Under the pieces are notes generated by a model that worked only from the letters and a program-made list of their open reading frames with translations, was not told the origin of the DNA and made no database searches. Shown in pieces: positions 9,620 to 38,544 of a stretch of DNA of 38,544 nt. The position numbers were made by a program, and so were the translations under genes. The stretch is taken from NCBI GenBank assembly GCA_022496185.1, contig WTXG01000313.1:1-38544 (forward strand). The letters are read 5' to 3'. Numbering within the stretch: the first letter of the stretch is position 1; each line of letters begins with the position of its first letter. The stretch is from Multifurca ochricompacta (taxonomy: Eukaryota > Basidiomycota > Agaricomycetes > Russulales > Russulaceae).

Positions 9620-10002
9620 TATGCAGAATTGATTTTATCACTTGTATCTATTTAATTGTGAACGCGTTTTGATCTTATCACTTGTATTATCTTAGATGTA
9701 CATCCCAAGTATCTAATTAATTGTGAACGCATTTTTGATCTTATCACTTGTATTAGATGTATATCCTAAGTATCTAATTAACTGTGAACGCGTTTTTGAT
9801 CTTATCACTTAGATGTATATCCCAAGTATCTAATTAATTGTGAACGCATTTTTGATCTTATCACTTAGATGTACATCCTAAGTATCTAATTAATTGTGAA
9901 CGCATTTTTGATCTTATCACTTAGATGTACATCCTAAGTATCTAATTAATTGTGAACGCATTTTTGATCTTATCACTTAGATGTACATCCTAAGTATCTA
10001 AT
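9620..10002 (+). repeat. 56-bp minisatellite, left block (inside hAT-D)
   Basis: About six to seven head-to-tail copies of a unit near 56 bp contain TTGTGAACGC, TTTTTGATCTTATCACTT and AAGTATCTAATTA. Units differ by point changes, notably ACGCG versus ACGCA, and some carry extra GTATTA. The array continues at 11599 on the other side of the Tc1 insertion. Confidence 0.92.
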
Positions 10003-10004
10003 TA

Positions 10005-10745
10005 CAGTGGGTCAAAAAACTGTCCCAATGTTTGCACCATTTCTAGTATTCACTCTATAGCACCTCAGCATTTAGGAATCTGGTTATGGTGTGGCTGTAT
10101 GTCTGAAAGCCCTGCTTCCTGGCTACCATGCCCAATTTGGATCAAAGAGATTGGCCATGATATAAGCATTTTATGATCAAATCAAATCAATCAATCATTG
10201 GGACAGTTTTTTGACCCACATTTTAAATCCACTATCTGCCCAATTACTCCTTTTTTTCACCCCTTTTTGCCTTGGTAACTCCTTGAATCCTTTTAGTCAT
10301 CCTTTCTATAACCTTTTGCCATCATTCTGGTGCATTTTTATTCCACTCCTCCACCACCCTCTCCCACAACTCAGGTATCCCCTTGACTGGTTAAGAACCT
10401 TCTTCAGATCCACCCAGAGGTGTCCAATGGGGCTAATATTTCAAGGGATTGGGCTATCCATACCAGGCTTCAATATTCCTGTCTTAAACCTGCTGGCTTG
10501 CCTTCTTGGAATTGTGTTTTGGGTCATTGTCCTGCTGAAACATGCTTTCACCCTCCACCATTTCTTACTTTTCAAACCTTTCCACCACTCTGCCATCCAA
10601 AATATCACAGTACTGGCATGGATTCATGATCCCCTAAACCCCTGTAAGCATTCCTAGTCCATTCCACCCCATACAAGACTAATACCATAAGTTCTTCCTC
10701 CTCCATGCTTGACTGTCAGGGTGGTGGTTCTGTCAGAGGGTGGTT
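10005..10745 (+). repeat. left 741-bp arm of the Tc1 palindrome
   Basis: Position p pairs with 21603 minus p in the right arm. The first 215 bases are themselves bounded by the outer terminal repeat and an inverted copy of it at about 10196-10219 (CATTGGGACAGTTTTTTGAC). The open frame 10211-10657 is only the antisense of transposase. Confidence 0.93.
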
Positions 10746-11395
10746 ACCATGAAAATTGGACAGTGGATGACTGGAAAAGGATCTTGTGGTCAGGTGAGAC
10801 TATAATGAACAGAATTGGTTCAGACAGAAGGAGCTACACTTGGGAAAAATAAGGGAGAACCACCCTCTGACAGAACCACCACCCTGACAGTCAAGCATGG
10901 AGGAGGAAGAACTTATGGTATTAGTCTTGTATGGGGTGGAATGGACTAGGAATGCTTACAGGGGTTTAGGGGATCATGAATCCATGCCAGTACTGTGATA
11001 TTTTGGATGGCAGAGTGGTGGAAAGGTTTGAAAAGTAAGAAATGGTGGAGGGTGAAAGCATGTTTCAGCAGGACAATGACCCAAAACACAATTCCAAGAA
11101 GGCAAGCCAGCAGGTTTAAGACAGGAATATTGAAGCCTGGTATGGATAGCCCAATCCCTTGAAATATTAGCCCCATTGGACACCTCTGGGTGGATCTGAA
11201 GAAGGTTCTTAACCAGTCAAGGGGATACCTGAGTTGTGGGAGAGGGTGGTGGAGGAGTGGAATAAAAATGCACCAGAATGATGGCAAAAGGTTATAGAAA
11301 GGATGACTAAAAGGATTCAAGGAGTTACCAAGGCAAAAAGGGGTGAAAAAAAGGAGTAATTGGGCAGATAGTGGATTTAAAATGTGGGTCAAAAA
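10746..11395 (+). pseudogene. Tc1-type transposase C-terminal half, broken
   Basis: Tc1 transposases cut and rejoin the element through a DDE catalytic core. The spacer reads HENWTVDDWKRILWSGET, where family members usually have WSDE.., so the first catalytic aspartate appears replaced by glycine. In the right arm KHGGGRTYG, then FQQDNDPKHNSKKAS (second aspartate) and SPIGHLWVDLKK follow. The last replaces the usual NP.E/D.LW, so the third acidic residue is lost too. Several stops (TAA, TGA, TAG) and frameshifts are present. This copy cannot make active transposase. Confidence 0.85.
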
Positions 11396-11598
11396 ACTGT
11401 CCCAATGATTGATTGATTTGATTTGATCATAAAATGCTTATATCATGGCCAATCTCTTTGATCCAAATTGGGCATGGTAGCCAGGAAGCAGGGCTTTCAG
11501 ACATACAGCCACACCATAACCAGATTCCTAAATGCTGAGGTGCTATAGAGTGAATACTAGAAATGGTGCAAACATTGGGACAGTTTTTTGACCCACTG
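10858..11598 (-). repeat. right 741-bp arm of the Tc1 palindrome
   Basis: Inverted copy of 10005-10745. The inner 24-base repeat lies at about 11384-11407 (GTGGGTCAAAAAACTGTCCC), facing the outer one at 11575-11598. The minus-strand open frame 10946-11392 has the same translation as the plus-strand frame of the left arm, which confirms the pairing. Confidence 0.93.
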
Positions 11599-11803
11599 TA
11601 ATTGTGAACGCGTTTTTGATCTTATCACTTAGATGTACATCCTAAGTATCTAATTAATTGTGAACGCATTTTTGATCTTATCACTTGTATCAGATGTATA
11701 TCCCAAGTATCTAATTAACTGTGAACACATTTTTGATCTTATCACTTAGATGTATATCCTAAGTATCTAATTAATTGTGAACGCGTTTTTGATCTTATCA
11801 ATT
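11599..11803 (+). repeat. 56-bp minisatellite, right block
   Basis: About four further copies of the unit TTGTGAACGC...AAGTATCTAATTA continue the array cut by the Tc1 insertion. Just downstream at 11913-11945 a short run TTCGCGTTTTTTCGCG is followed by TTCGTG and TTTGCA variants. Confidence 0.9.
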
Positions 11804-13441: not shown

Positions 13442-14894
13442 CCTGATTATGACAATGGCCTCACAGATAATGAACACACAGTACTCCTCCCAAATGAAAA
13501 TTGGTCTCTCAAAGTCATTCAACTTGCTGAAGATCACGATACTTATCAAGAAATTGCCAAACAGTTCCATGACCACCCACTGGCTGGACACCCTGGTCGC
13601 TGCAATACCTGGGACCTTGTCTCCAAGATTTATAATGGTCCAAATTTATGTGAGTTCATCACTAACTATGTCAAAGGATGCCATGCATGCCAAGCAACCA
13701 AACCACACATGAAAACACTGGTTCCACTCTCCCCTTTCGATACCCCCGCAACTGAAGGCCCTTTTCAATTTATCTCCCTCAATCTCATCATGGACCTCCC
13801 TTTGTCACAAGGTTACAATGCTATTCTCACTATTGTTGACCAGGGATGCTCAAAAATGGCCAAGTTTATTCCCTGTTCTACTTCTATTACTGGTATTGAT
13901 GTTGCATCTCTCTATTTCACACACCTCTTTCCCCTATTTGGTGTTCCAAAATGTGTGATTTCTGATTGTGACCCCCACTTCACATCAAGTTTCATCAGAA
14001 AATTGTGCAAGACTCTCTCTATCTCTCAAAACATTAGTACCGCATTCCACCCCCAAACAGATGGCCAAACAGAATGCATGAACTGGTGGGTTGAACAATA
14101 CCTTTGTCACTGGACCTTTGGAAACCCCCACACTTGGGCTCCTCTTCTCCCTATGGCCGAATTTGTCCATAACTGATGGCGTCATGATAAAACTAAGCTT
14201 AGCCCCCATGAATTACTCCTTGGCTTCTGTCCTAGTCCCCCAAACTCCAAAATTACCACCCCAATCCCCACCTTATCAGATTGCCTTGCTTCTATTCTCT
14301 CTGCCCGTCATCTCACATCCAAAGTTCTGGAACAACTGACACCTCTAACACCATCTTTCTCCCTCCATGATCAGGTCTGGCTCAAAGGTAAGCATATCTC
14401 CTCCCTTTTCCCATCCCAAAAGCTCGCCCCCCACCACCATGGACCCTTCACGATCACCTGCATTATCTCTCCCATTGTGTTTGAACTTGCCCTCCCTCCT
14501 TCCCTAAAGATTCACAATGTTTTCCATGCCTCCCTTCTCTCCCCATACATCACCACCTCTGCATATGGCCCATCCCCGCCTTGACCCCTCCTGTCCTGGT
14601 TCATGGCACCGAGGAAGTGAAATCGACCATGTCATTGGCCACCACCGCTCAGGCTGCCTAGGCTGCCTCCAGTTTCTCCTTTGCTGGAAAGGGTTCCCAT
14701 CCTCTGACAATGAATGGGTCAATTATCGTCATATTCATGCCGATGACCTCATTCATGACTACCTTTCCACCCTTCCCCCTTCCCTTGCTGCTGCCCTTCC
14801 TGTTTGTAGTCTCACAAACCTTACAATGGGAGGTAATTCACCTTCAAAACCCTCACCCCGCCTTTTATTCGCATACCCCCGAGAAAGCCTATAA
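13442..14894 (+). pseudogene. gypsy-A integrase and chromodomain
   Basis: Integrase inserts the cDNA, and the chromodomain is thought to steer it to heterochromatin. The zinc-binding region shows H.....GHPG and CHACQATKPH. The core shows SLNLIMDLPLSQGYNAILT, CVISDCDPHFTSSF and STAFHPQTDGQTE, giving the three acidic residues, although the usual MDFI start is altered. A TGA at 14174-14176 and another at 14582-14584 interrupt the frame. Two one-base shifts near 14590-14630 follow. The chromodomain then reads IDHVIGHHRSG and LCWKGFPSSDNEWVNY. The rest to 15129 is a 3' region with no conserved domain seen. Confidence 0.85.
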
Positions 14895-17251: not shown

Positions 17252-18325
17252 TCAGAGGGTTGGGGGTCTAGGCAAGGTGGGATGGCGATGATGGAAGTTT
17301 TGAAGCAGGGTCATGGCATTCTTCATGTCAGTGAAGGGGACCCAAGAGTTTTCGGAGGCAGGGTAACCCTTCCATTTAACAAGGTAACAGATGCCTTTTC
17401 TGTTAGGGGTGTGGGCAGACTGCAAGATGGTCTCTATCTCATAATGGTCTTCTTCCCCATTCACAAGTTCAGGTGGTGGTCAGGTGAAGTTGGGTCCATG
17501 GGCTGGGGTTTCTTTGTACTGGGACAGAAGAGAATTGTGAAAGACCGGGTGGATGTGCCATGACTTAGGGAGTTCAAGTTTGCAGTTAACAGGGCCAGAG
17601 TGTACGACCTTGAAAGGGCCATGACATCGGGGGCTGAGTTTGGCCTTGGGGTGAGTGGTGCGTATGTTTGTTCCTTCCAGCCAAACCAGTTCTCCTGTCT
17701 TGAAAGCATGAAGGGGTCCATCTGGTCTTGACTGCTTCATGAGTTCTGCAGCAACCTGAAGGGCAGCAGCCACTTCACTGAGGATAGTTTCTAGGGTGTG
17801 GAGTCTTTCTTCAACTGATAGAATAGGGGTCGCAAAATGGAGTGGGGGAATAAACTCTGGTTGGAAGCCATACCAGATTTTGAAGGGGGATCTTTTGGTG
17901 GCACTATGGGTTCTAGCATTGTGGGCAAACTCCATAAAGGGGATCAGCTCTGCCCAGTCATCTTGTTGGAAGTTGCAGAAGACATGGAGATATTGTTCCA
18001 GTTCTTGGTTGACTCATTCAGTCTCTCCATCAGTCTGGGGGTGATAGGCAGTGCTCAAGGATGATTGTACTCCTAATTTGCTCCACATTTCTTTCATGAC
18101 TTTGGATGCAAATTGGGGACCTCGATCAGAGATGACTTGGTCTGGGAGGCCAGTGTGCCTCCATACATGTTCAAGGAATAGCTTGGAGGTTTCTGGAGCA
18201 GTGATGTCTTTGGTACAGGGAACAATGATGGTGGCTTTGCTGAATCAGTCCACCACCACAAATAGAGAGTCATAGGAGTGGGATAGGGGTAGGTCTGTGA
18301 TAAAGTCCATGGTGATTGTTCCCCA
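17252..18325 (-). pseudogene. gypsy-Z integrase core, C-terminal domain and chromodomain
   Basis: From the left-cut end the protein reads TITMDFITDLPLSHSYDSLF (first catalytic D), VISDRGPQFASK (second D) and STAYHPQTDGETE (catalytic E). The integrase C-terminal domain follows with LVWLEGTNIRTTHPKAKLSP and HPVFHNSLLS. The chromodomain has YEIETILQSA and YLVKWKGYPASENSWVPF. Two in-frame stops, both TGA on the minus strand (18247-18245 and 18016-18014), stand where the family has arginine (VDRFSK, TERVNQ). A shift near 17465 separates chromodomain from integrase. The catalytic residues are retained. Confidence 0.87.
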
Positions 18326-25428: not shown

Positions 25429-26009
25429 TGTTACGAACAGGGCCCAGTAGCCCTATTTTCTTCACTCTCCCCAACCAGGACCCCACTTGTCCACCAACCC
25501 TTCATTTCCTCATTACATCTCCCTCCTGGGACCCCTCACATGCATTGCTTCCATCCCCATGACTGTTGTTTGGACTTGTGTAGTTACTATTTGTTTATGC
25601 TTGTCTTTTCTTATCGTCTTATCTTTACGACCGGACATTTACTTAATCCCCTATCAGAAGCCAGGCTTTACGCCATCCGCTTTCATATCTTTGGGCCCAC
25701 ATGACTCCGATATCCTTATCTATAGACACCCATCCATTTACGTATATAAGTCCGTCTTAGCTACACTGTAGACCTTAGACTCAACTTATTGAATACATCG
25801 GTGTTTGTCTTCTGGACTCTCCCTTGCAATCTCTGACTTGTCTGTCTCAGTGCTTTTGGCACTTTCTGCTCAACATCGTCTTAGGGAACAGCCCCTTCGA
25901 CTTTGACTCATCCCCTTGAACTCCAAGAGGTCCTATTGACCTCTTATCCAAAACTCTTGACCAACGCTGTCGCACAAGTCGTGCGGAACATCCCACACCG
26001 GATGTAACA
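25429..26009 (+). repeat. 5' LTR of gypsy-B
   Basis: It runs from TGTTACGAACAGGG to CCGGATGTAACA. The TATA box TATATAAG is at 25743-25750. The likely transcript start AGACTCAACTT begins at 25777, 34 bases after the first T of the TATA box. Confidence 0.97.
25743..25787 (+). promoter_or_regulatory. TATA box and probable transcript 5' end of gypsy-B
   Basis: TATATAAG at 25743 is followed at +34 by AGACTCAACTT. The same word (AGACTCGACTT in the others) stands at +34 in LTR-Y and in the LTR at 37032-37621, although the bases between have changed. The word is complementary to the sequence just after the 5' LTR. That the transcript starts here is inference from spacing and complementarity. Confidence 0.6.
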
Positions 26010-26028
26010 TCAAGTCGAGTCTCCCACA
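26010..26028 (+). other. probable self-priming primer-binding site of gypsy-B
   Basis: Only 19 bases separate the LTR from gag. AAGTCGAGTCT (26012-26022) lacks the TGG start of a tRNA-primed site. It is the exact complement of AGACTCGACTT, the presumed first 11 bases of the family transcript. This is the arrangement known from Tf1 and related elements, where the RNA 5' end folds back as primer. In this copy the LTR words have each lost the central CG, leaving 10 of 11 matches. Confidence 0.6.
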
Positions 26029-27425
26029 GTGGCTTCCAGCTGCAGTCAGACCCTCTTCCAAGAAGAACTCATCGAGCACAGAGACGAGAATAATCTTTCA
26101 CAGCAAGTACTTGGCTCTGCTGCCTGGAAAGACTTTGAAACCGAGTTTGGATACTACGTCTATCACGACGGACGATACCAACCGGTAGAATACGATGACA
26201 AGAAAAGAGTTTGGTATTGTATCTGATACTCAGACAGTCGAAACTCTTGGGTCACGACCAGACCTGCCCCACCCAAATTTGGACTAGGCCCGTGGAGAGA
26301 AAACCCTCCGGCCATTGTCACAGACTCCGAACCTGAGGAGTATGTAGAAGACCCTAGTGAAGAAGAAGCACCGGCATTAGCAGCGCCTATGTTTCCGGTT
26401 GCACCCGCAGTTGTCACATTCAGAGCCCCTGCTTTGACAACTCCCCAGATATCAGTACAGTCTACAGAAACCGTCACCTTACCTCACCCACCCATGTCTA
26501 CCATTGCCGCCCAACTCCCAGACCCCGCCCCACCAGCCCCTGTGGCACCCCCACCAAACATTCCTCCCCCATCGGGACGGCTGTCAGGAGTATTACCCCA
26601 GACCTTCACAGGAGACCGCTCGCAGAGCAAGAAGTTTATGTTGGAGTTCACGACTTTCAAGAACTTCAACCACGATGTCCCACAGATCGTCAACCCATTC
26701 CAGCGTGCCAATCTGTTCCTCTCTTTGATCCGAGGGGATGCGGTGGATGACTGGACCATGGAGCAATTGGAGTGGTTAAACGAACAAGTTGAAAGTGGGC
26801 GTCGTACCACAAGCGAAGGCCTTTGGGAGACCATCGCCGAAAGGTTCAAAGACGCCTTCACAGACGGACAAGCCAAGCAGAAGGCAGCCCGGGAGTTGAA
26901 ATCCCTCAGGATGGAAAAGGGCAAATTAGATGCATACGTTGCCAAGTTCAGAAGTCTGGCCAATAGGGCTGGCTACAACACGGATGAGGAGGCCACACTA
27001 GACCTCTTCTCGCAAGGGCTACCCAACCCCTTGGTTAAAAATATCATACAGTTCCACCATCCCCACAATTGGGACACTTGGGTTGATGCTGCCCGACGGC
27101 AGCAACAAGATTATTTGGACTTCCAGACACGATTTGGAGTCGACACCAAGAAGGGAAAAACCTGAGACCAGTGGAAGGCCGCTTCGGAGTAAAACCTGCC
27201 CATCATACTCAGCGAGATCCAAATGCTATGGACACCTCTGCGGATCGAGCCCGAGCTCGGGCAGCACTCACAGAAGACAAGCGGCAGGCATTAATGAAGG
27301 AAGGACAATGCTTCCGCTGCAGAGCATTGGGACATATGTCTCGAGATTGTCCCAAGAGAGGAGTACGTGCCACTACGGCAACCGTCACACCAGAAAGCCC
27401 TGCTCAGAATAACCGCCCACCGTAG
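26029..27425 (+). pseudogene. gypsy-B gag with CCHC zinc knuckle
   Basis: Gag builds the particle and binds the RNA. The N-terminus follows the LTR after 19 bases. The present first codon is GTG (GTGGCTTCC), probably an altered ATG. The central capsid-like domain reads FTGDRSQSKKFMLEFTTFKN, WTMEQLEWLNEQ and GLWETIAERFKDAFTD, as in retrotransposon gag. A CCHC knuckle CFRCRALGHMSRDC lies near 27309-27350. Two TGA stops (26224-26226 and 27163-27165) sit where CGA would keep the frame. A shift near 27170 moves the knuckle to another frame. A proline-rich stretch around 26500-26580 separates the two halves. Confidence 0.88.
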
Positions 27426-28130
27426 ACAAAAGATCAAAGGAAGAAAAGGCCCAGGATATATGGGCTAATATGATGAAGGAGAGCGAGGAAGTACGCGCTA
27501 TTTTGGTAGAAAAAGCTTTTGCAAAAAAGGATTTTTGTTAGGCTCAAACCCATCAGCCTGGGCACGAGCACTCCATGTTACCTCTGTGTATGCTAGTTGA
27601 TTCAAGTGTTGAAAATACCAGTACATTTTGAAACTACACAGAGGACGGCCGACCGAGATATCTTAGTGGACTCTGGAGCCACAGATAATTTCATTCATCC
27701 ACGACTAATACGAACAATGGGTCTGGGAAGGCTGGCACTTCCCCAGGAAAAGAATATTTGGAATATTGATGGAACAGCTAATTGCGCCGGAAAGATCACC
27801 CACTATACAGACCTAAAGGTCCAGGTCGGAGAAATGACGAAGATCATTCGCTTCTTAATTACGGACCTAGGAGATGAGGACCTCATCTTGGGATATCCAT
27901 GGCTCATGGCTTTTGAACCAAAGATTAATTGGGCTGATGCAACCATGGATAAGGACTCATACCCAACCATTATCACATCGCTGGGTTATGATTATGCGAT
28001 CAGGCATCCAGTAATCAGAACTACACAAACAGAGAGAGGGAAGACCCTGGTCAATGTTATGCCACCAAAGCGTCAGAACTGGCCCAGAGGGCTGTGCAGG
28101 GACAAGCTGAGAAGACTTACCATAATGTAG
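27426..28130 (+). pseudogene. gypsy-B protease
   Basis: Retropepsin landmarks are ILVDSGATDNFIHPRLIR (D-S-G active site) and DEDLILGYPWLMAFEPKINW, the conserved C-terminal strands. The part from 27597 to 28130 is open. The linker 27426-27596 between the gag knuckle and the protease lies in another frame (DIWANMMKESEEV) and is ended by a TAG near 27538. No separate start is needed, since gypsy proteases are cut from a polyprotein. Confidence 0.85.
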
Positions 28131-29496
28131 TGCCGAGTGTCTATCAGCGGCATGGAAGTATTCTCCGAGGAAGAGTCACACCGCTTCCCCCCAAAGCGAC
28201 CATGGGACCATGCCATTGACCTCCTCCCGGACACGCCAGCTGCTATAGACTGTAAAGTCTATCCACTGTCCCAAACGAACAGGTGGCACTTACTGAATTC
28301 CTTGAGGAACACTTAGCCAAAGGATACATTCACCTGTCCAAGTCGCCATACGCCTCACCCTTCTTCTTTATCAAAAAGAAGGATGGCAAGCTGCGACCAG
28401 TCCAGGACTACTGGAAGATTAACATGCATACTGTAAAAAACGCCTATCCCCTGCCTCTCATTTCTGAACTCATCAACACCATGTGGGATAAATCCCTCTT
28501 TTCAAAGATGGATGTACAATGGGGTTACAACAACGTTAGAATCAAGGAAGGCGACCAGTGCAAAGCGGCATTCAAAATGAACCAAGGATTGTTCGAACCG
28601 AATGTCATGTTCTTCGGACTCACAAACTCACTGGCAACGTTCCAATCCATGATGAATCACATCTTCCGAGACCTCATCCTCACTGGCGAAGTGGTAGTAT
28701 ATATGGACGACATCTTGGTTGCCACTGCCAATGATTTGAATCACCACCGAGAACAAGTACATCAGGTGCTAGACATATTGCATGAACATGATTTGTACCT
28801 CAAACCCACAAAATGCTCCTTTGAACAACAAGCGTTGAGTACTTGGGAGTGATCCTGGAGGGAGGACAAGTGTGTATGGACCCTGTCAAGGTACAAGGAA
28901 TTCGGGAATGGCCAATGCCAACTTGTGTCAAGGATGTCTGATCCTTTATTGGGTTCTGTAACTTCTACCGGCGTTTCATTAAAGGATTCTCAGGCATAGC
29001 ACGACCCCTAAATGACCTCCTGAAGAAGGATGTGCCATGGCATTGGAGTACCAACAACAACAAGCATTCGAATGGATTAGAGACCTGGTTGGCTCAGAAC
29101 CAGTACTCATTCAACCTGATCTGAGTCGCCCCTTTGAGCTAGAAGTAGATGCCTCCCATTTCACGAATGGAGCAGTATTGTATCAAAGGGACAATTCGCA
29201 AGTGCCGCACCCGTGGCATACTACTCAGAAACCTTTCATCCGCGGAATGGAATTACGACATTTGGGATAGGGAACTCCTAGCCATAGTCAAGGCACTACG
29301 ACATTGGCGACCATACCTCGCAGGGAATCCTCACAAAACAGTCATCTACACTGATTATTCTAATTTGTTGTACTGGAAAGAACCCCACAAGATCAGCCGA
29401 CGCATAGCACGAGAGGTCCTAGAGCTTGAAGAATATGACTTTACCCTGAAACACATTGCAGGAAGTCAGAATGCGCGAGCGGATGCACTGTCATGA
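28131..29496 (+). pseudogene. gypsy-B reverse transcriptase and RNase H
   Basis: RT landmarks are [30 protein letters not shown] (catalytic D), [16 protein letters not shown] and [10 protein letters not shown] (YMDD). RNase H landmarks are ELEVDASHFTNGAVL, WDRELLAIVKALRHW, VIYTDYSNL and HIAGSQNARADALS. The frame is broken near 28275 (one base missing in a C run), 28845, 29050 and 29230. Two TGA stops, 28939-28941 (family KDVRSF) and 29494-29496 (family ALSRRPD), sit at arginine positions. The catalytic residues are kept, so the damage is recent. Confidence 0.88.
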
Positions 29497-29505
29497 AGGC
29501 CAGAC

Positions 29506-31008
29506 ATGCATACAGGGGAAGACGACAATGACCACATAACTGTCCTCCCAGAAGAGGTGTTCGCGAAGACAGCCATAGTCAGCCTCCATGATATGGACCT
29601 GTGGGCACAAGTCTCACAAAATATGAACCCAGAACTGTGCCGCTCGTGGGCTGACGCCCACAACCTGAAAGAAATTAATGGTCTTTGGTGGAAGGACAGA
29701 GATCGACTTGTTGTCACCGGTGGCAACAACATTAAGAGGGGGGTGATCCATTTTCACCACGATCTCCCTTCTGCTGGTCACCCAGGCATCGCCAATACTT
29801 ATGCCCTCGCCAAACGTGACTACTGGTGGCCCAACATGAAGAAAGACATCGAAGACTATGTGAAGGGATGTGCGGACTGCCAGGCTAATAAAGTGAACAC
29901 ACACCCGCACCCTCCGGCCATGCTTCCCATTACTCCCACCACGTCTTTGCCATTCCAAACGATTGCCATGGATTTCATAGTCAAACTACCCAACTCTAGA
30001 GGCTTTGACTCCATTTTGACCATCACAGACCACGACTACTCCAAAGCAGCGCTCTTCATACCATGCAAGGAGTCCATCACAGCGGAGGGAGTGGCCAAGC
30101 TCTATCTTGACCACGTCTATCGACACTATGGCCTCCCAGAAAAGATCATCTCTGACCGAGACCCACGCTTCACTTCGACGTTTGCCAGAGCATTATGCAA
30201 GGTTCTGGACATACAGCAGAACATCTCAACAGCCTACCACCCCCAAACAGATGGACAGTCGGAACGCACCAATCAATGGCTAGAACAGTACCTCCAATTC
30301 TGGTGCAATGGACGACAGGATGACTGGGCAGACTGGCTGGCAACAGCAGAGTTTGCACACAACTCCTGGCCTAATGGCACGATGAGAACCCCCCCATTTT
30401 CCCTTATCATGGGCTGGGTACCACACACTACATGGACTGATAAGCCAACAAATGTCCCCATGACCGCACAGCGACTCAGCCAATGGGATGAGATCCGGAA
30501 ATCGGCCAATGAGAACCTGTTGAAGGCACAGCAGACCTTATCAGATAAACCCTCGAAATTCACACCTTATCGAGTCGATGAACAGGTTTGGCTGGAAGGG
30601 AAGCACATCCATACATCACACCCCACAGCTAAGTTGGCACCCCGACGTCACGGACCCTTCCAAATCACAAGGAAATTATTGGATGTATCATATGAACTCG
30701 AACTCCCCCCCACATGGAAGATCCACCCGGTCTTCCATGCGAAGCTTCTAACACCATACAAGGAAACATCCATTCATGGGGAAAACTTCCCAAGGCCTCC
30801 ACCGGAATTAGTCAATGGAGAAGCAGAGTGGGAAGTGGAGCGGATTATGAACTCCGCTTATCGAGGCCGAGGGCGCAAACTACATTACCTGATCAAGTGG
30901 AAGGGATTCCCAGACTCTGACAATTCATGGGAACCAGCCAGGAATATCTTTGCCCCGGATTTGATCACAGAGTTCCACTTACGACATCCTCAGGCACCTA
31001 GGAAGTAG
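29506..31008 (+). CDS. gypsy-B integrase with chromodomain, open 500-residue frame
   Basis: This is the intact 3' part of the polyprotein, in phase with RNase H and separated from it by one TGA. The HHCC zinc-binding region lies at residues about 84-125 (HHDLPSAGHPG, then CADC). The catalytic residues are D156 (AMDFI), D217 (SDRDPRF) and E253 (DGQSER), with 35 residues between the last two. The C-terminal DNA-binding part has VWLEGKHIHTSHPTAKLAPR and HPVFHAKLL. The chromodomain at residues about 441-495 reads EWEVERIMNSA and YLIKWKGFPDSDNSWEP. The frame starts after the TGA; natural translation would begin in gag. All key residues are present. Confidence 0.9.
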   Translation: MHTGEDDNDHITVLPEEVFAKTAIVSLHDMDLWAQVSQNMNPELCRSWADAHNLKEINGLWWKDRDRLVVTGGNNIKRGVIHFHHDLPSAGHPGIANTYALAKRDYWWPNMKKDIEDYVKGCADCQANKVNTHPHPPAMLPITPTTSLPFQTIAMDFIVKLPNSRGFDSILTITDHDYSKAALFIPCKESITAEGVAKLYLDHVYRHYGLPEKIISDRDPRFTSTFARALCKVLDIQQNISTAYHPQTDGQSERTNQWLEQYLQFWCNGRQDDWADWLATAEFAHNSWPNGTMRTPPFSLIMGWVPHTTWTDKPTNVPMTAQRLSQWDEIRKSANENLLKAQQTLSDKPSKFTPYRVDEQVWLEGKHIHTSHPTAKLAPRRHGPFQITRKLLDVSYELELPPTWKIHPVFHAKLLTPYKETSIHGENFPRPPPELVNGEAEWEVERIMNSAYRGRGRKLHYLIKWKGFPDSDNSWEPARNIFAPDLITEFHLRHPQAPRK

Positions 31009-31084
31009 TTAAAAGGAGAGCAAACCCCTGACTTTTCTTCCCCAGAACAAAGCTTCACCAGCAATGTCCTAACCACAAATCAAT

Positions 31085-32278
31085 ATGTCCTCTTCCTTCA
31101 TTGCTGCCTCTGCTGCCATTGACGCCTTCGCTGCCACTACTGTGGTCATGGAAGCTTTCCCCTCCGCTCACCCCTCCACTCGCCCTTCCTCTCCTATCGA
31201 CTACGAAGCCGCTGAGGAACGCATTAAGAACCAGTTGCCCAATCCAAATGACGACTTCACCCACTCTGAAGAACCCCACCCAAACGACCTCATCGGCATG
31301 GAGCAAGATGATGAAGTACCTGAATTTCCATTCTTCGCCAACAACCCAAACTCCTCCATGTACTTCCCACTCGAAATCACAATGGCTGATGGGACAAAAG
31401 AAATAGCTAAGTACATATTCTACACCAATGGAGGAATGGATGTTGCAGGCTGCATGAAGAAGGATGGGCCTGTTTACGGGGCCCTGGTTTACTTGGAAGA
31501 GTGATACACAGGTCGTCTTCACCATATGATGAGTGACGAACAGCTGGGGCACCTTGCGGCCGACGACCCCCGAGCCTTTGCAATCGATGAGGTATTGAAC
31601 GACATGCGACTCCCATGTCTCAAAGCCGAAGTAATGAGACTGTGGAAAACCCTCGCCCTTCACACCACACTCAATACTCAGTACAAGGAATATGCGAAGC
31701 AAATGACAAGGCTTACGAGAGGCATGTTCCAAGTCGAGCAGGAGTTGACGGAGATTCGGAAAAGGTTGGAGATAGGGGACGCATATCAGACCATTGCAGA
31801 GAGGTATGCCGACACATATGCCCGACCCCTTCCCCCACGATCGCTAGGAGCGGCACCACAACTACTACCAAACTGATTCGAGATGCCACGAATGCACGAG
31901 AACCCCTGAGGGGAGACTTGCTGGCGATGCGATAGCAAGTATCATATCAGCTGGAATTGCCCCCTCAATCGCAAATGGTGCCGTCACTGTCGAAGCAACC
32001 TCCATTGGAGCAGATTCTGCATCTTCCAATGTCTGGGAGTCGTGCCCACCATTGTCAATCCATCGGGATGGTGTGGAAAGTGTCTGCAACATAACGCGGG
32101 GCATCACGAGCTCAATTGTCCAGTGTACAATCTGTGTCGCCAGTGTGGATGGCGCGGACCATACGGGTTCCTGCGCACACACCAATGTGCAGCAGATGAA
32201 ACCTACACCATGGAGGATTGAAATCTGGTGGATGATTATGTGGACTTGGTACAAGATGATGATGGTGCGCGTTTCTAG
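31085..32278 (+). pseudogene. extra ORF after integrase: helical protein with four zinc-knuckle-like motifs (copy 1)
   Basis: It starts at ATG 31085 (MSSSFIAASAAIDAF), 76 bases after the integrase stop, and ends at TAG 32276-32278, 31 bases before the LTR; 397 codons. An alanine/proline-rich N-terminus is followed by an acidic stretch and a conserved block (FYTNGGMDVAGCMKKDGPVY). A long charged region that looks helical (LKAEVMRLWK...IRKRLEIGDAYQ) comes next, then tandem knuckles from residue 279: CWRC....H....C, CRHC....H....C, CGKC......H....C and CRQC...HQC. Four in-frame stops, all TGA (31502, 31874, 31907, 32219), interrupt it. Copy 2 has arginine at three of these positions. I do not recognise the family. 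RNA or DNA binding is a reasonable guess, nothing more. Confidence 0.82.
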
Positions 32279-32295
32279 CTGGGTCAGCTCGAGCC

Positions 32296-32309
32296 AGAAG
32301 GGAGGGTGA
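32296..32309 (+). other. polypurine tract of gypsy-B
   Basis: AGAAGGGAGGGTGA lies directly before the 3' LTR and would prime plus-strand DNA synthesis. The minus-strand relative at 37622 has the matching AGAGGGGGTGA. Confidence 0.85.
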
Positions 32310-32890
32310 TGTTACAAACAGGGCCCAGTAGCCCTATTTTCTTCACTCTCCCCAACTGGGACCCCACTCGTCCACCAACCCTTCATTTCCTCATTACGTC
32401 TCCCTCCTGGGACCCCTCACATGCATTGCTTCCATCCCCGTGACTGTTGTTTGGACTTGTGTAGTTACTATTTGTTTATGCTTGTCTTTTCTTATCGTCT
32501 TATCTTTACGACCGGACATTTACTTAATCCCCTATCAGAAGCCAGGCTTTATGCCATCCGCTTTCATATCTTTGGGCCCACATGACTCCGATATCCTTAT
32601 CTATAGACGCCCATCCATTTACGTATATAAGTCTGTCTTAGCTACGCTGTAGACCTTAGACTTGACTTATTGAATACATCGGTGTTCGTCTTCTGGACTC
32701 TCCCTTGCAATCTCTGACTCGTCTGTCTCAGTGCTTTCGGCACTTTCCACTCAACATCGTCTTAGGGAACAGCCCCTTCGACTTTGACTCATCCCCTTGA
32801 ACTCCAAGAGGTCCTATTGACCTCTTATCCAAAACTCTTGACCAACGCTGTCGCACAAGTCGTGCAGAACGTCCCACACCGGACGTAACA
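32310..32890 (+). repeat. 3' LTR of gypsy-B
   Basis: It has the same 581-bp length as the 5' LTR, from TGTTACAAACAGGG to CCGGACGTAACA. It differs from the 5' LTR at 20 bases, all C/T or G/A changes in CpG-derived dinucleotides. The TATA box is near 32624. Confidence 0.97.
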
Positions 32891-35356: not shown

Positions 35357-37031
35357 TCAAGCGCGACAAATCCCAAGGTTTTGAATATGAGTGGCGACCT
35401 TGTACTTGGGAAGTGCCTTCATAAGGATGTCCGCGGTCATGTCTTCTGTGGGACAGTACTCGAGTTGAATTTGTTTATCAGTAATTGTTTGGTGAATAAA
35501 ATGAAATCGAATGTCGATGTGTTTGGTGTGTGCATGGTAGTTATTGTCTTCTGCAAGTCGGATTGCGGCTTGATTGTCGCATAGTAGAGGTGTCGGAGTA
35601 AGGGTAATATTGAATAGGGACTTGAGAAGGCGTCGCATCCAAATGCACTCCTTGGCTGCATGAGTTGCGGCCACATATTCTGCTTCTGCGGTAGAAAGGG
35701 TAATTAGCTCTTGCTTTCGCGAAGCCCAAGAGACTGCTCCGCCATCAATGAGGAAGGTGAAGCCGGATATTGTGTGGTGGTGTTCTTGTGACGCTCCATC
35801 TGCATCCGTGTATCCAATAAGATCGTGTGCTTGATTACCGTAAGTGAGTTTGTATGACTTGGTACCATTGAGGTAATGAAAGATTCGCTTCACTACTTGC
35901 CAGTGAATTTCACCCAGGTTTTCGAGGAATTGTGATAGTGTTGATACAGCAAAGGTGATGTCGGGTCGTGTGGCAACAGAGGTGTACATGAGGCTGCCAA
36001 TAGCCTCGCGGTAGGGAGTCTTCTTCATATGCGCCGCTTCAGTATCATCACTTGGCGCGTCAGACTTGTTGTAGTATGCCCCTGAGATGATGGGGGTTGC
36101 ATATGGTTTTGAATCGCTGAGTGTGAACCTGGCGAGAATGGTTTCGATGTAGGCTGTCTGGGAAAGTGAGATAGTTTGCATGTTACGGTTGTGCGAGATC
36201 TTGATGCCCAAGAGCCAGTGGACCGGACCAAGGTCCATGAGGGAGTAGCGGTTATTGAGCTTGTGCTTGTATTCGGTGATAAATGTTTTGCAGCTGCCTG
36301 TGATAATGCAATCGTCAACATGGATTGCTAGGATGGTCAGGTGTCCTTTGCTGTGAGCGGAGAACACTCCGGGGTTGGCTTCATTGACGTGGAAGCCTAG
36401 GTCATTGAGAGCGCGGTACAGTGTGTCGTACCACTTGCGTCCAGCCTGCTTCAGGCTGTAAAGGGACTTGTGTAAATGTTTGACAGACTCCCCTTGAGTG
36501 TCGTAACCAGGGGGTGATTGCATGTAGATGTCTTTGTTGTCGTCGAGCTCACCATTTAGATAAGCCCTGTTGAAGTCGAAGCTGTCGATTTCCCAATCAT
36601 GCCGGGCAGCCAAGGCGAGTATGGTGCAGAAGCTTGCGAGCCTGGCGACAGGGGAAAAGGTGTCGAAATAATCCACCCCAAACCTCTGGGTGAATCCGCG
36701 CACTACGAGTCGCGCCTTGTACTTCTCGATGGTGCCGTCTGATTTTCGCTTGATGCGGAAAACCCATTTGCTGCCGACAATATTCTTGCCAGTGGGGCGC
36801 GGGACTGTAGACCAAGTTCCGGCCTTCTCGAGTGTGTTGATCTCGTGATCCATGGCTTTCTGCCATTTCGGCCAATCTTGCCAGGATTGCGCGTCTGAGA
36901 GTGTCTTCGGGTCACCTTCTATATCGTTGATGGTGGCCTCCATAGCATCTTCGCAATCTGCGGAGTAAGCGAACTTGGGGGTTACAGCACTAGAGGCACT
37001 GTATCTGGGCCAGTCAGGATGGTAGTACTGG
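35357..37031 (-). CDS. copia-3 pol: open reverse transcriptase and RNase H, 5' cut by a gypsy insertion
   Basis: The frame is open from the junction at 37031 to TGA at 35357-35359, about 557 codons; the first in-frame ATG is at 36943. Counting from that ATG, RT shows WVFRIKRKSDGTIEKYKARL at residues 60-79, FDFNRAYLNGELDD with D123, and AIHVDDCI with D210-D211 (HVDD instead of the usual YVDD). RNase H shows IGYTDADGAS, STAEAEYVAATHA and LCDNQAAIRLAEDNN, and ends near HIDIRFHFI and DILMKALP. The stop overlaps the polypurine tract. It is uninterrupted, unlike all other pol copies here. Integrase and gag lie beyond the gypsy LTR inserted at 37032. Confidence 0.92.
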
Positions 37032-37621
37032 TGTTACGTCCGGTGCAGGACGTTCCACACGACTTGTGTGACAGCGTGATATGCGGGTTCGGATAAGAGG
37101 CCAATGAGGTCCCTTGGAGTTCAGAGGTTATGAGTCAACGTCCAAGAGGCTGTACTCTAAGACAATGTTGAGCAGAAAAGTGCCAAAAGCACTGAGACAG
37201 GCAGACGTCAAGAGACAAGGGGAAAGTCCAGAAGACAAGCACCAATGTATTCAATAAGTCGAGTCTGAGGTCTACAAGGTAGCTACAGTGGACTTATATA
37301 CGTAATCGAATGAGCGTCTAAAGATAAGATACTACGGAGTCATGTGGGCCCGAATATACGAAAGCGAAGGGCGTAAAGCCATGCTTCTGATAGGGAATTA
37401 AGTAAGTGTCCGGTCATAGAGATAAGGGATAAGAGATAAGTGATAACAAGACAATCATAAGTACATCGACATAAACAGAGACAAAGACTATCACGGGGAC
37501 AGGAGTAGGGCATGTGAGGGATCCCACGATGGAGACGTGATCTGGTAGTGAAGGGTAGGCAGCAAAGAGGGGTCGTCGTTGGGTAAGAAGAAAAAGACAG
37601 GAAGAGACGGGGTTCGTAACA
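37032..37621 (-). repeat. 3' LTR of gypsy-B2 (590 bp), minus strand
   Basis: On the minus strand it runs from TGTTACGAACCCCGTC to CACCGGACGTAACA, after the tract AGAGGGGGTGA. It resembles the gypsy-B LTRs in its ends, in its TATA box, and in AGACTCGACTT at +34 from the TATA box. It interrupts copia-3 pol at 37031. The TSD partner is outside the window. Confidence 0.93.
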
Positions 37622-37652: not shown

Positions 37653-38544
37653 CTAGAAACGACTCATACCGTCATCATCCTGTACCAGCTCCAGGTAATT
37701 GTCAGCTACATTACGGTCATCCATGCTGTACGATTCCAACTCTTGCGGGCATGCGTGGGTACAAAGAAACCCATACGGACCACGCTGGCCACATGCACAG
37801 CATAAGTCGTAGACAGGGCAATCGATTTCCTTATGCCCAGCGTTATGGCGAAGGCACTTGCTGCACCAGCCCGATGGGTTGGTGATAGTCGGGGCCACTC
37901 CTACACGTTGGAAGATGCAGTGCCTGCTCCAGTGGAGATTGCTTCGACAGTGTCGACACCATTTGCGGTTGAGGGGGCAGTTCCAGCTTATGTGATACTT
38001 GCTATCACATCGCCAGCAGGTTTCCCCGTGCGGGTTCTCGTGCAAGCGTGGCATCTCCAGCCGGGTCGGCAGCAGCGTCGGGGCCGCACCCAAGGTTCGA
38101 GGGGGGAGGGGTCGTGCATAAGTGTCTGCGTACCTTTCAGCAATTGTCTGGTACGCATCCCCCGCTTCCAACCTCTTTCTGATGTCCACAATCTCCGACT
38201 CCAACTGGAACATCCCATTCGTCAGCCTTGCCATCATTTTCGCGTGCTCCTTATACTGTTGGTTCAGCGTCCTCCTCAAGGTGATACTCTTCCTCAGCCT
38301 CATGACTTCTGCCTTTAAGCGCGGCAGTCTCATATCGTTCATCACCTCATCGATCGCGAAGGCGCGACAGTCTTCCGCGGCAAGGTGACCCAACTGTTCA
38401 TCAGTCAACGTGTGGTGGAGTCGACCTGTATACCTTTCCTCCAGATAGACAGGAGCTCCGTAAACCGGCCCATCCTTCTTCATACACCCCGCCACATCCA
38501 TCCCGCCATTGGTGTAGTAGATATACTTGGCGATGGCCGTAGAT
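37653..38544 (-). CDS. extra ORF after integrase: helical protein with four zinc-knuckle-like motifs (copy 2, partial)
   Basis: Open on the minus strand from the window edge to TAG at 37653-37655, about 296 residues, with 31 bases to the LTR. It is the counterpart of the ORF at 31085. Counting from the ATG at 38501, a charged helical region spans about 61-128. The knuckles are C162-C175 (CWRCDSKYHISWNC), C182-C195, C213-C228 and about C234-C251. The acidic tail is ELVQDDDGMSRF. In the block DAYQTIAERYADTYARPLPP the two copies are identical in protein but differ at 12 codons by silent changes. No stop is present, so this copy could be expressed if the rest of the element is intact. Confidence 0.9.
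   Translation of the reverse strand, partial: STAIAKYIYYTNGGMDVAGCMKKDGPVYGAPVYLEERYTGRLHHTLTDEQLGHLAAEDCRAFAIDEVMNDMRLPRLKAEVMRLRKSITLRRTLNQQYKEHAKMMARLTNGMFQLESEIVDIRKRLEAGDAYQTIAERYADTYARPLPPRTLGAAPTLLPTRLEMPRLHENPHGETCWRCDSKYHISWNCPLNRKWCRHCRSNLHWSRHCIFQRVGVAPTITNPSGWCSKCLRHNAGHKEIDCPVYDLCCACGQRGPYGFLCTHACPQELESYSMDDRNVADNYLELVQDDDGMSRF

Follow-up and report, generated by a model that had tools for sequence, protein, structure and literature searches.

A third open reading frame with four zinc-knuckle-like motifs, conserved downstream of pol in a lineage of Ty3/gypsy elements from Multifurca ochricompacta

The window analysed here is one whole contig, WTXG01000313.1 (positions 1-38,544, forward strand), from the Multifurca ochricompacta assembly GCA_022496185.1, and the genome searched comprises 53.8 Mb on 605 contigs. 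The DNA had been read as fungal in a first-pass annotation, and this agrees with a hydrophobin search in which a single match in the genome exceeds the family cut-off, compared with none in 14 control genomes; a second hydrophobin family, which matched neither this genome nor the controls, is uninformative. Positions 25429-32890 are occupied by element A, a chromodomain Ty3/gypsy element with all of its features on the forward strand. Its 5' LTR (25429-26009, TGTTAC...GTAACA) shares 96.6% identity over 582 nt with the 3' LTR (32310-32890), and the five letters GTCTA lie immediately outside each LTR. This copy of the element is decayed, with both gag and pol fragmented. The gag pieces (26227-27422), in a frame that is broken here, contain a Retrotrans_gag domain (PF03732, E 1.6e-9) and one CCHC knuckle (PF00098, E 8.1e-7), so that Gag does possess a knuckle of its own, as had been noted. 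They are followed by pieces of pol encoding protease, reverse transcriptase and RNase H (27597-29493; PF13975, PF00078 and PF17917), also broken, and then by an integrase with a Tf2-type SH3 domain and a C-terminal chromodomain (29497-31008; PF17921, PF24626 and PF00385 above cut-off), for which the integrase family PF00665 scores 29.3 bits, under its cut-off of 32.6. The chromodomain itself is located at 30829-30978 (PF00385, E 1e-15) and the pol stop falls at 31008. A purine-rich stretch read from the sequence directly 5' of the 3' LTR (32296-32309) is presumably the polypurine tract.

Within the 5' LTR a TATATAAG box (25743-25750) is present in the 11 leaders read, and the self-primer pairing places the putative RNA start 34 nt downstream of this box. 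The self-primer-type binding site (26012-26022) is complementary to the predicted RNA 5' end (25777-25787), with 11 of 11 letters pairing in nine of the 11 copies and 10 of 11 letters in the other two, one of which is the window copy. We take the group to which element A belongs to be the Tf1/sushi-type chromoviruses, self-primed Ty3/gypsy elements that carry a chromodomain. Element A shares with them the order protease-reverse transcriptase-RNase H-integrase-chromodomain (Pfam, 27597-31005), the Tf2-type SH3 domain and, given the inferred start, a primer site complementary to the 5' end of the RNA; it differs from them by the addition of a conserved third open reading frame after pol.

The leader has a further property that concerns gag. 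Over its first 330 nt the gag frame has a dN/dS of 0.14 (10 copies, three with one stop; window positions 26010-26490 and stretches L079-L089), and this conserved frame reaches the edge of the 5' LTR without a common ATG. From the putative RNA start to +480 each copy contains 0-4 ATGs compared with shuffle means of 4.9-7.6, the count being under the mean in 11 of 11 copies, and translation of gag may begin at a codon other than AUG.

The third open reading frame, ORF3, is represented in element A by copy A (31085-32278, 397 codons). Its ATG at 31085 lies 76 nt past the pol stop in a frame different from that of pol, and its TAG stop (32276-32278) is separated by 31 nt from the 3' LTR. Copy B belongs to a second element on the reverse strand (37653-38543, 296 open codons), where it is truncated by the end of the contig, and is 96% identical over 296 residues to the genome copy P0001. 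The LTR of this second element (37032-37594, reverse strand) has a 76.8% match to that of element A, the span given being only the extent of the match; it is abutted by a 558-codon ORF for a reverse transcriptase of copia type (35357-37033, reverse strand). The first-pass annotation had described two related gypsy elements with the same ORF and placed copy A between integrase and 3' LTR, and both the description and the coordinates are right. Copy A is nevertheless not the open frame it was taken for, as it contains four in-frame TGA codons and has decayed; only copy B is open.

In the genome ORF3 is found at at least 214 loci, copy A included, when the searches with a protein query (at least 104 places), with a query of the other subtype (at least 104) and with the DNA of copy A (at least 40, including itself) are merged. 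Nearly all of the matches from the protein search, at at least 104 places, are full length. Among 150 listed matches to the end of the integrase, 67 have a listed ORF3 match downstream, at a distance of 79-91 nt in 65 cases and of 141 and 151 nt in the other two. Eight of the 83 integrase ends with no listed ORF3 were sampled and all eight carry it, three as an open and five as a broken frame. ORF3 thus follows the integrase at every place checked, which makes it a gene of the element and not one captured host locus; a single host gene was rejected on the same grounds and on the 214 merged loci. Beside two other gypsy integrases in the window, at 17267-17704 (reverse strand, 52% identity to the integrase of element A) and 14213-14762 (forward strand, 38-40%), no ORF3 match was found, and ORF3 therefore appears to be a property of one element lineage. 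When an integrase from outside, P0003, was used as query, it matched at least 87 places in the genome with identities of 60-63%. Many of these places are in the ORF3 lineage, and the search yielded no nearer lineage for comparison.

Selection on ORF3 was measured on the 59 of 73 distinct copies that give a continuous alignment, 14 broken or partial copies being excluded; 27 of these are from group A, which was sampled by DNA similarity and not by protein score, and 32 from group B, which includes two copies of a third subtype. The median dN/dS is 0.057 within group A, 0.041 within group B and 0.044 for pairs across the two groups. These values lean towards intact copies, the set having been taken from the matches with the best scores, with 14 of the 73 copies left out. 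As dS is saturated between the groups in this first pass, unsaturated pairs and codon maximum likelihood provide the better numbers: omega is 0.066 by codon maximum likelihood (fast search, kappa 1, terminal and internal branches pooled), and across 174 unsaturated pairs from 53 of the 59 copies dN/dS is 0.071 for ORF3 against 0.136 for the last 202 codons of pol. The ORF3 protein is under strong purifying selection, stricter than that on the 3' end of pol. Pairwise distances in ORF3 and in the pol end show a moderate correlation (r 0.55), at which some exchange between copies is possible. Four of the five other frames have dN/dS values of 1.6-4.9, against 0.041-0.057 for the sense frame; the fifth, an antisense frame whose codons are wobble-aligned with those of ORF3, has values of 0.11-0.155, yet it carries 8-16 stops per copy, and the antisense ORF at 31055-31843 was discarded as a consequence of this alignment.

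Selection on the protein had already been proposed from a stretch of 21 codons in which 12 differ between copies A and B with no residue changed. The recount is exact, and the values far below 1 across many copies, well away from the neutral value of about 1, extend the proposal to the family. Conservation of the cysteines and histidines also agrees with it: of the 16 predicted ligands, 15 show no change in any of the 59 copies, and the remaining one, C277, is retained in 58.

These predicted ligands form four C-x2-C...H...C motifs (31919-32188), all of which were found where the first-pass annotation had seen them, in ORF3. In P0001 numbering they are at residues 277/280/285/290, 297/300/305/310, 328/331/338/343 and 349/352/364/366, which gives two CX2CX4HX4C motifs followed by one CX2CX6HX4C and one CX2CX11HXC. 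The surrounding region (residues 273-368) is basic, with 15 lysines and arginines against 5 aspartates and glutamates, and contains 13 cysteines in P0001; residues 1-90 and the tail are acidic. The long charged helical part described earlier is supported by a heptad pattern at residues 178-227 (31622-31771), with a score reached by 29 of 5000 shuffles for P0001 and by 0 of 5000 for L055. This segment is predicted to be a coiled coil through which ORF3 may self-associate, and it is helical in a low-confidence model; the structure models as a whole are too weak to interpret, with a mean pLDDT of 36 for the whole protein and 55 for the zinc region. Based on this make-up we infer that the protein probably binds zinc and RNA, and it may, as had been suggested, be a second nucleic-acid-binding protein of the element.

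No relative of ORF3 was detected among 5.8 billion proteins, either with one sequence at E <=1e-3 (2,272 candidates) or with 26 aligned sequences at E <=1 (7,507 candidates). The integrase of the same element, used as a control for this search, has at least 5,648 relatives among the best 7,988 candidates scored, the best at about 60% identity. Viral contigs yielded no match to ORF3, but none to the integrase either, and are uninformative on this point. Between the subtypes within this genome the integrase end and ORF3 are equally divergent (about 80%), and since they diverge alike, a homologue of ORF3 would be expected to be visible in the elements whose integrases are related at about 60%. 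The result suggests either a lineage-specific gain or contigs of the relatives that do not cover this stretch. Comparison with Pfam and NCBIfam gave sub-threshold matches only, one sequence had no match in PHROGs, and nothing significant was found among PDB sequences, in keeping with the earlier statement that no family with this layout was known. The spacing of zf-CCHC, CX2CX4HX4C, is present in two of the four motifs, and no ORF3 motif reaches the Pfam cut-off for this family (8.7 against 20.8 bits for the first member); zf-CCHC matches at E <=10 occur in 19 of 39 members, with a best E of 1.1. Other zinc folds match weakly: the IBR half-RING finger in 18 of the 39 members, with E 0.68 at best, and ZZ in one (E 0.015). 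In the open-access PMC literature no description of the ORF3 protein was found.

How ORF3 might be expressed from a position beyond the pol stop is suggested by two sequence signals. A possible 5' splice site, GGA|GTATGT (26337-26345), lies within the gag frame. Its GTAYGT is conserved in all 11 leaders read, 330 nt from the leader's start (the stretch L088 misses the leader); in 10 of the 11 no other GTRNGY occurs from the TATA box to +650. The possible 3' splice site, TTTTCTTCCCCAG (31033-31045), is 39 nt 5' of the ORF3 ATG. Its CCCCAG is present in 78 of 78 parsed spacers, compared with a frequency of 0.107 in shuffled spacers, and is 38-42 nt from the ATG in 67 of the 78. These were parsed from 81 copies, three being set aside: L001 and L095, in which the beginning of ORF3 was not located, and L015, although its spacer also has CCCCAG. 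A branch point of strict consensus occurs in 5 of the 78 spacers and a relaxed one in 54, with none in 19. Part of the conservation of GTAYGT is explained by its location in conserved gag code, and the counts for both signals are not independent since the copies are related. The implied intron (26340-31045) would be 4.7 kb in length, and usual fungal introns are far shorter. Expression of ORF3 from a spliced subgenomic RNA, joining GTAYGT to CCCCAG, is thus possible and is the least certain part of the scheme set out below; reinitiation past the pol stop is the alternative.

We hold with moderate confidence that ORF3 is a selected gene whose product is likely to be an oligomerising, RNA-binding accessory protein with four probable zinc-binding motifs. 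In such a scheme the protein would oligomerise through the predicted coiled coil, the four motifs would hold the genomic RNA of the element, and the complex would serve to handle the unspliced form of that RNA, in nuclear export or in packaging, with the step served being the least certain point of the function. Handling of unspliced genomic RNA is carried out in lentiviruses by Rev. A precedent among gypsy elements is CERV, a further protein of Cer1 that is the product of a spliced RNA and is required for export of the genomic RNA; a leucine zipper is predicted in CERV, and consensus splice acceptors precede its predicted ATG (PMC10309623). CERV shares the polyprotein frame in exons 1-3 and 5 (PMC10309623), whereas ORF3 is read in a frame of its own and has four zinc-type motifs and splice sites that are candidates only. 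Should the RNA of the ORF3 element be spliced, the unspliced form would have to get out of the nucleus, a step for which Cer1 needs CERV. Export or packaging was chosen as the role from this precedent together with the make-up of the ORF3 protein. The fuller version, a programme of two RNAs in which an unspliced gag-pol RNA is exported or packaged by the product of a spliced RNA encoding ORF3, in the manner of Rev or CERV and in fungi, through a protein with no known relatives, is put forward tentatively.

A different assignment would make ORF3 an additional nucleocapsid, or a chaperone of RNA, with its role inside the particle, in packaging and reverse transcription, and not in RNA export. 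The first two motifs have the spacing of the retroviral nucleocapsid, with the pair of CX2CX4HX4C motifs 6 residues apart in ORF3, and a coiled coil is combined with a basic zinc region. LINE ORF1 proteins also combine a coiled coil with CCHC knuckles. A profile of the zinc region matched 9 PDB chains at E <=10, none of them significantly, of which 8 are nucleocapsid or Gag (E 0.022-0.43) and the ninth is an adenylate kinase (E 0.8); the whole-protein profile gave 11 sub-threshold matches, 3 of which are by name not related to nucleocapsid (carbonic anhydrase, Lin-28 and a GCN4 fusion). The nucleocapsid and Gag matches also speak for the accessory-protein reading, and the three unrelated whole-protein matches against it. 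Against the nucleocapsid assignment, the matches are under significance and the gag of the same element already has a knuckle. ORF3 further differs from retroviral nucleocapsid in lying outside gag and in having two further motifs of longer spacing. We regard this assignment as rather unlikely, and as less likely than the accessory-protein reading.

Counter-defence, for example suppression of host silencing, whether RNA silencing or a methylation-based form, has to be considered in relation to the decay of the copies. Stops are present in 25 of the 59 aligned copies (drawn from among L009-L078 and copy A of the window), all 50 of them are TGA, and 50 of 50 fall where other copies have codons containing CpG; longer match lists add one copy with a TAG and one with a TAA, beside TGAs. 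This pattern fits decay mostly of methylated CpG after insertion, and the host probably methylates the copies of the element, conditions that would favour the retention of a silencing suppressor. Silencing suppressors usually evolve fast, however, whereas ORF3 has changed less than the end of pol, and we consider counter-defence improbable. Very little weight can be given to a duplicated and diverged gag. The two proteins share knuckle-type motifs, and BLASTP aligns 34 residues (38% identical, E 0.004) where Retrotrans_gag begins, but hhalign gives a probability of 11% over 28 columns, no longer match exists, and Retrotrans_gag matches 0 of 26 ORF3 members; this candidate was set aside on its one short match, and the clear gag relationship that could have overturned the first-pass annotation was not found. 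An envelope-like protein, suggested by the post-pol position and the possible splice acceptor, is scarcely credible and largely ruled out by the hydropathy profile, in which the maximum 19-residue mean of 1.35 confirms that ORF3 has no visible membrane segment, and Pfam gives no env match.

Extra ORFs in the slot between pol and the 3' LTR are already known in other retrotransposons, and the accessory-protein reading of ORF3 can be set beside them. A 2010 study (PMC2864245) names several basidiomycete chromovirus clades and reports an additional ORF in a gypsy element of fungi, which may or may not belong to the same family, and a network study records further genes in one fungal chromovirus clade (PMC2774666). 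The additional ORFs of plant LTR retrotransposons are, like ORF3, in sense orientation between pol and the 3' LTR; they are often termed env-like and some have membrane segments, in contrast to ORF3 (PMC7264820). The ORF3s of bdelloid rotifers are likewise non-envelope proteins in the env slot and are reportedly produced from spliced messages, yet the types listed are GDSL, DEDDy, coiled-coil and TM, with zinc unmentioned in the text of that paper (PMC5408684).

For most of the additional ORFs that LTR retrotransposons carry in the envelope slot no role has been assigned, and the fungal ORF3 is abundant, strictly conserved and clearly non-membrane. If the candidate splice signals are used, retrovirus-like handling of RNA becomes testable in a fungus; if they are not, the translation of an ORF of 397 codons past the pol stop needs to be explained. 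In either case ORF3 provides a further sequence family for the annotation of fungal transposons.

Elsewhere in the window a perfect inverted repeat of 746 nt (10000-10745 and 10858-11603), with arms 112 nt apart, is flanked by 56-nt minisatellites. The 163-codon ORF of this repeat has no Pfam match at E <=0.01, and the repeat is a palindrome of very recent origin or else an artefact of the assembly.
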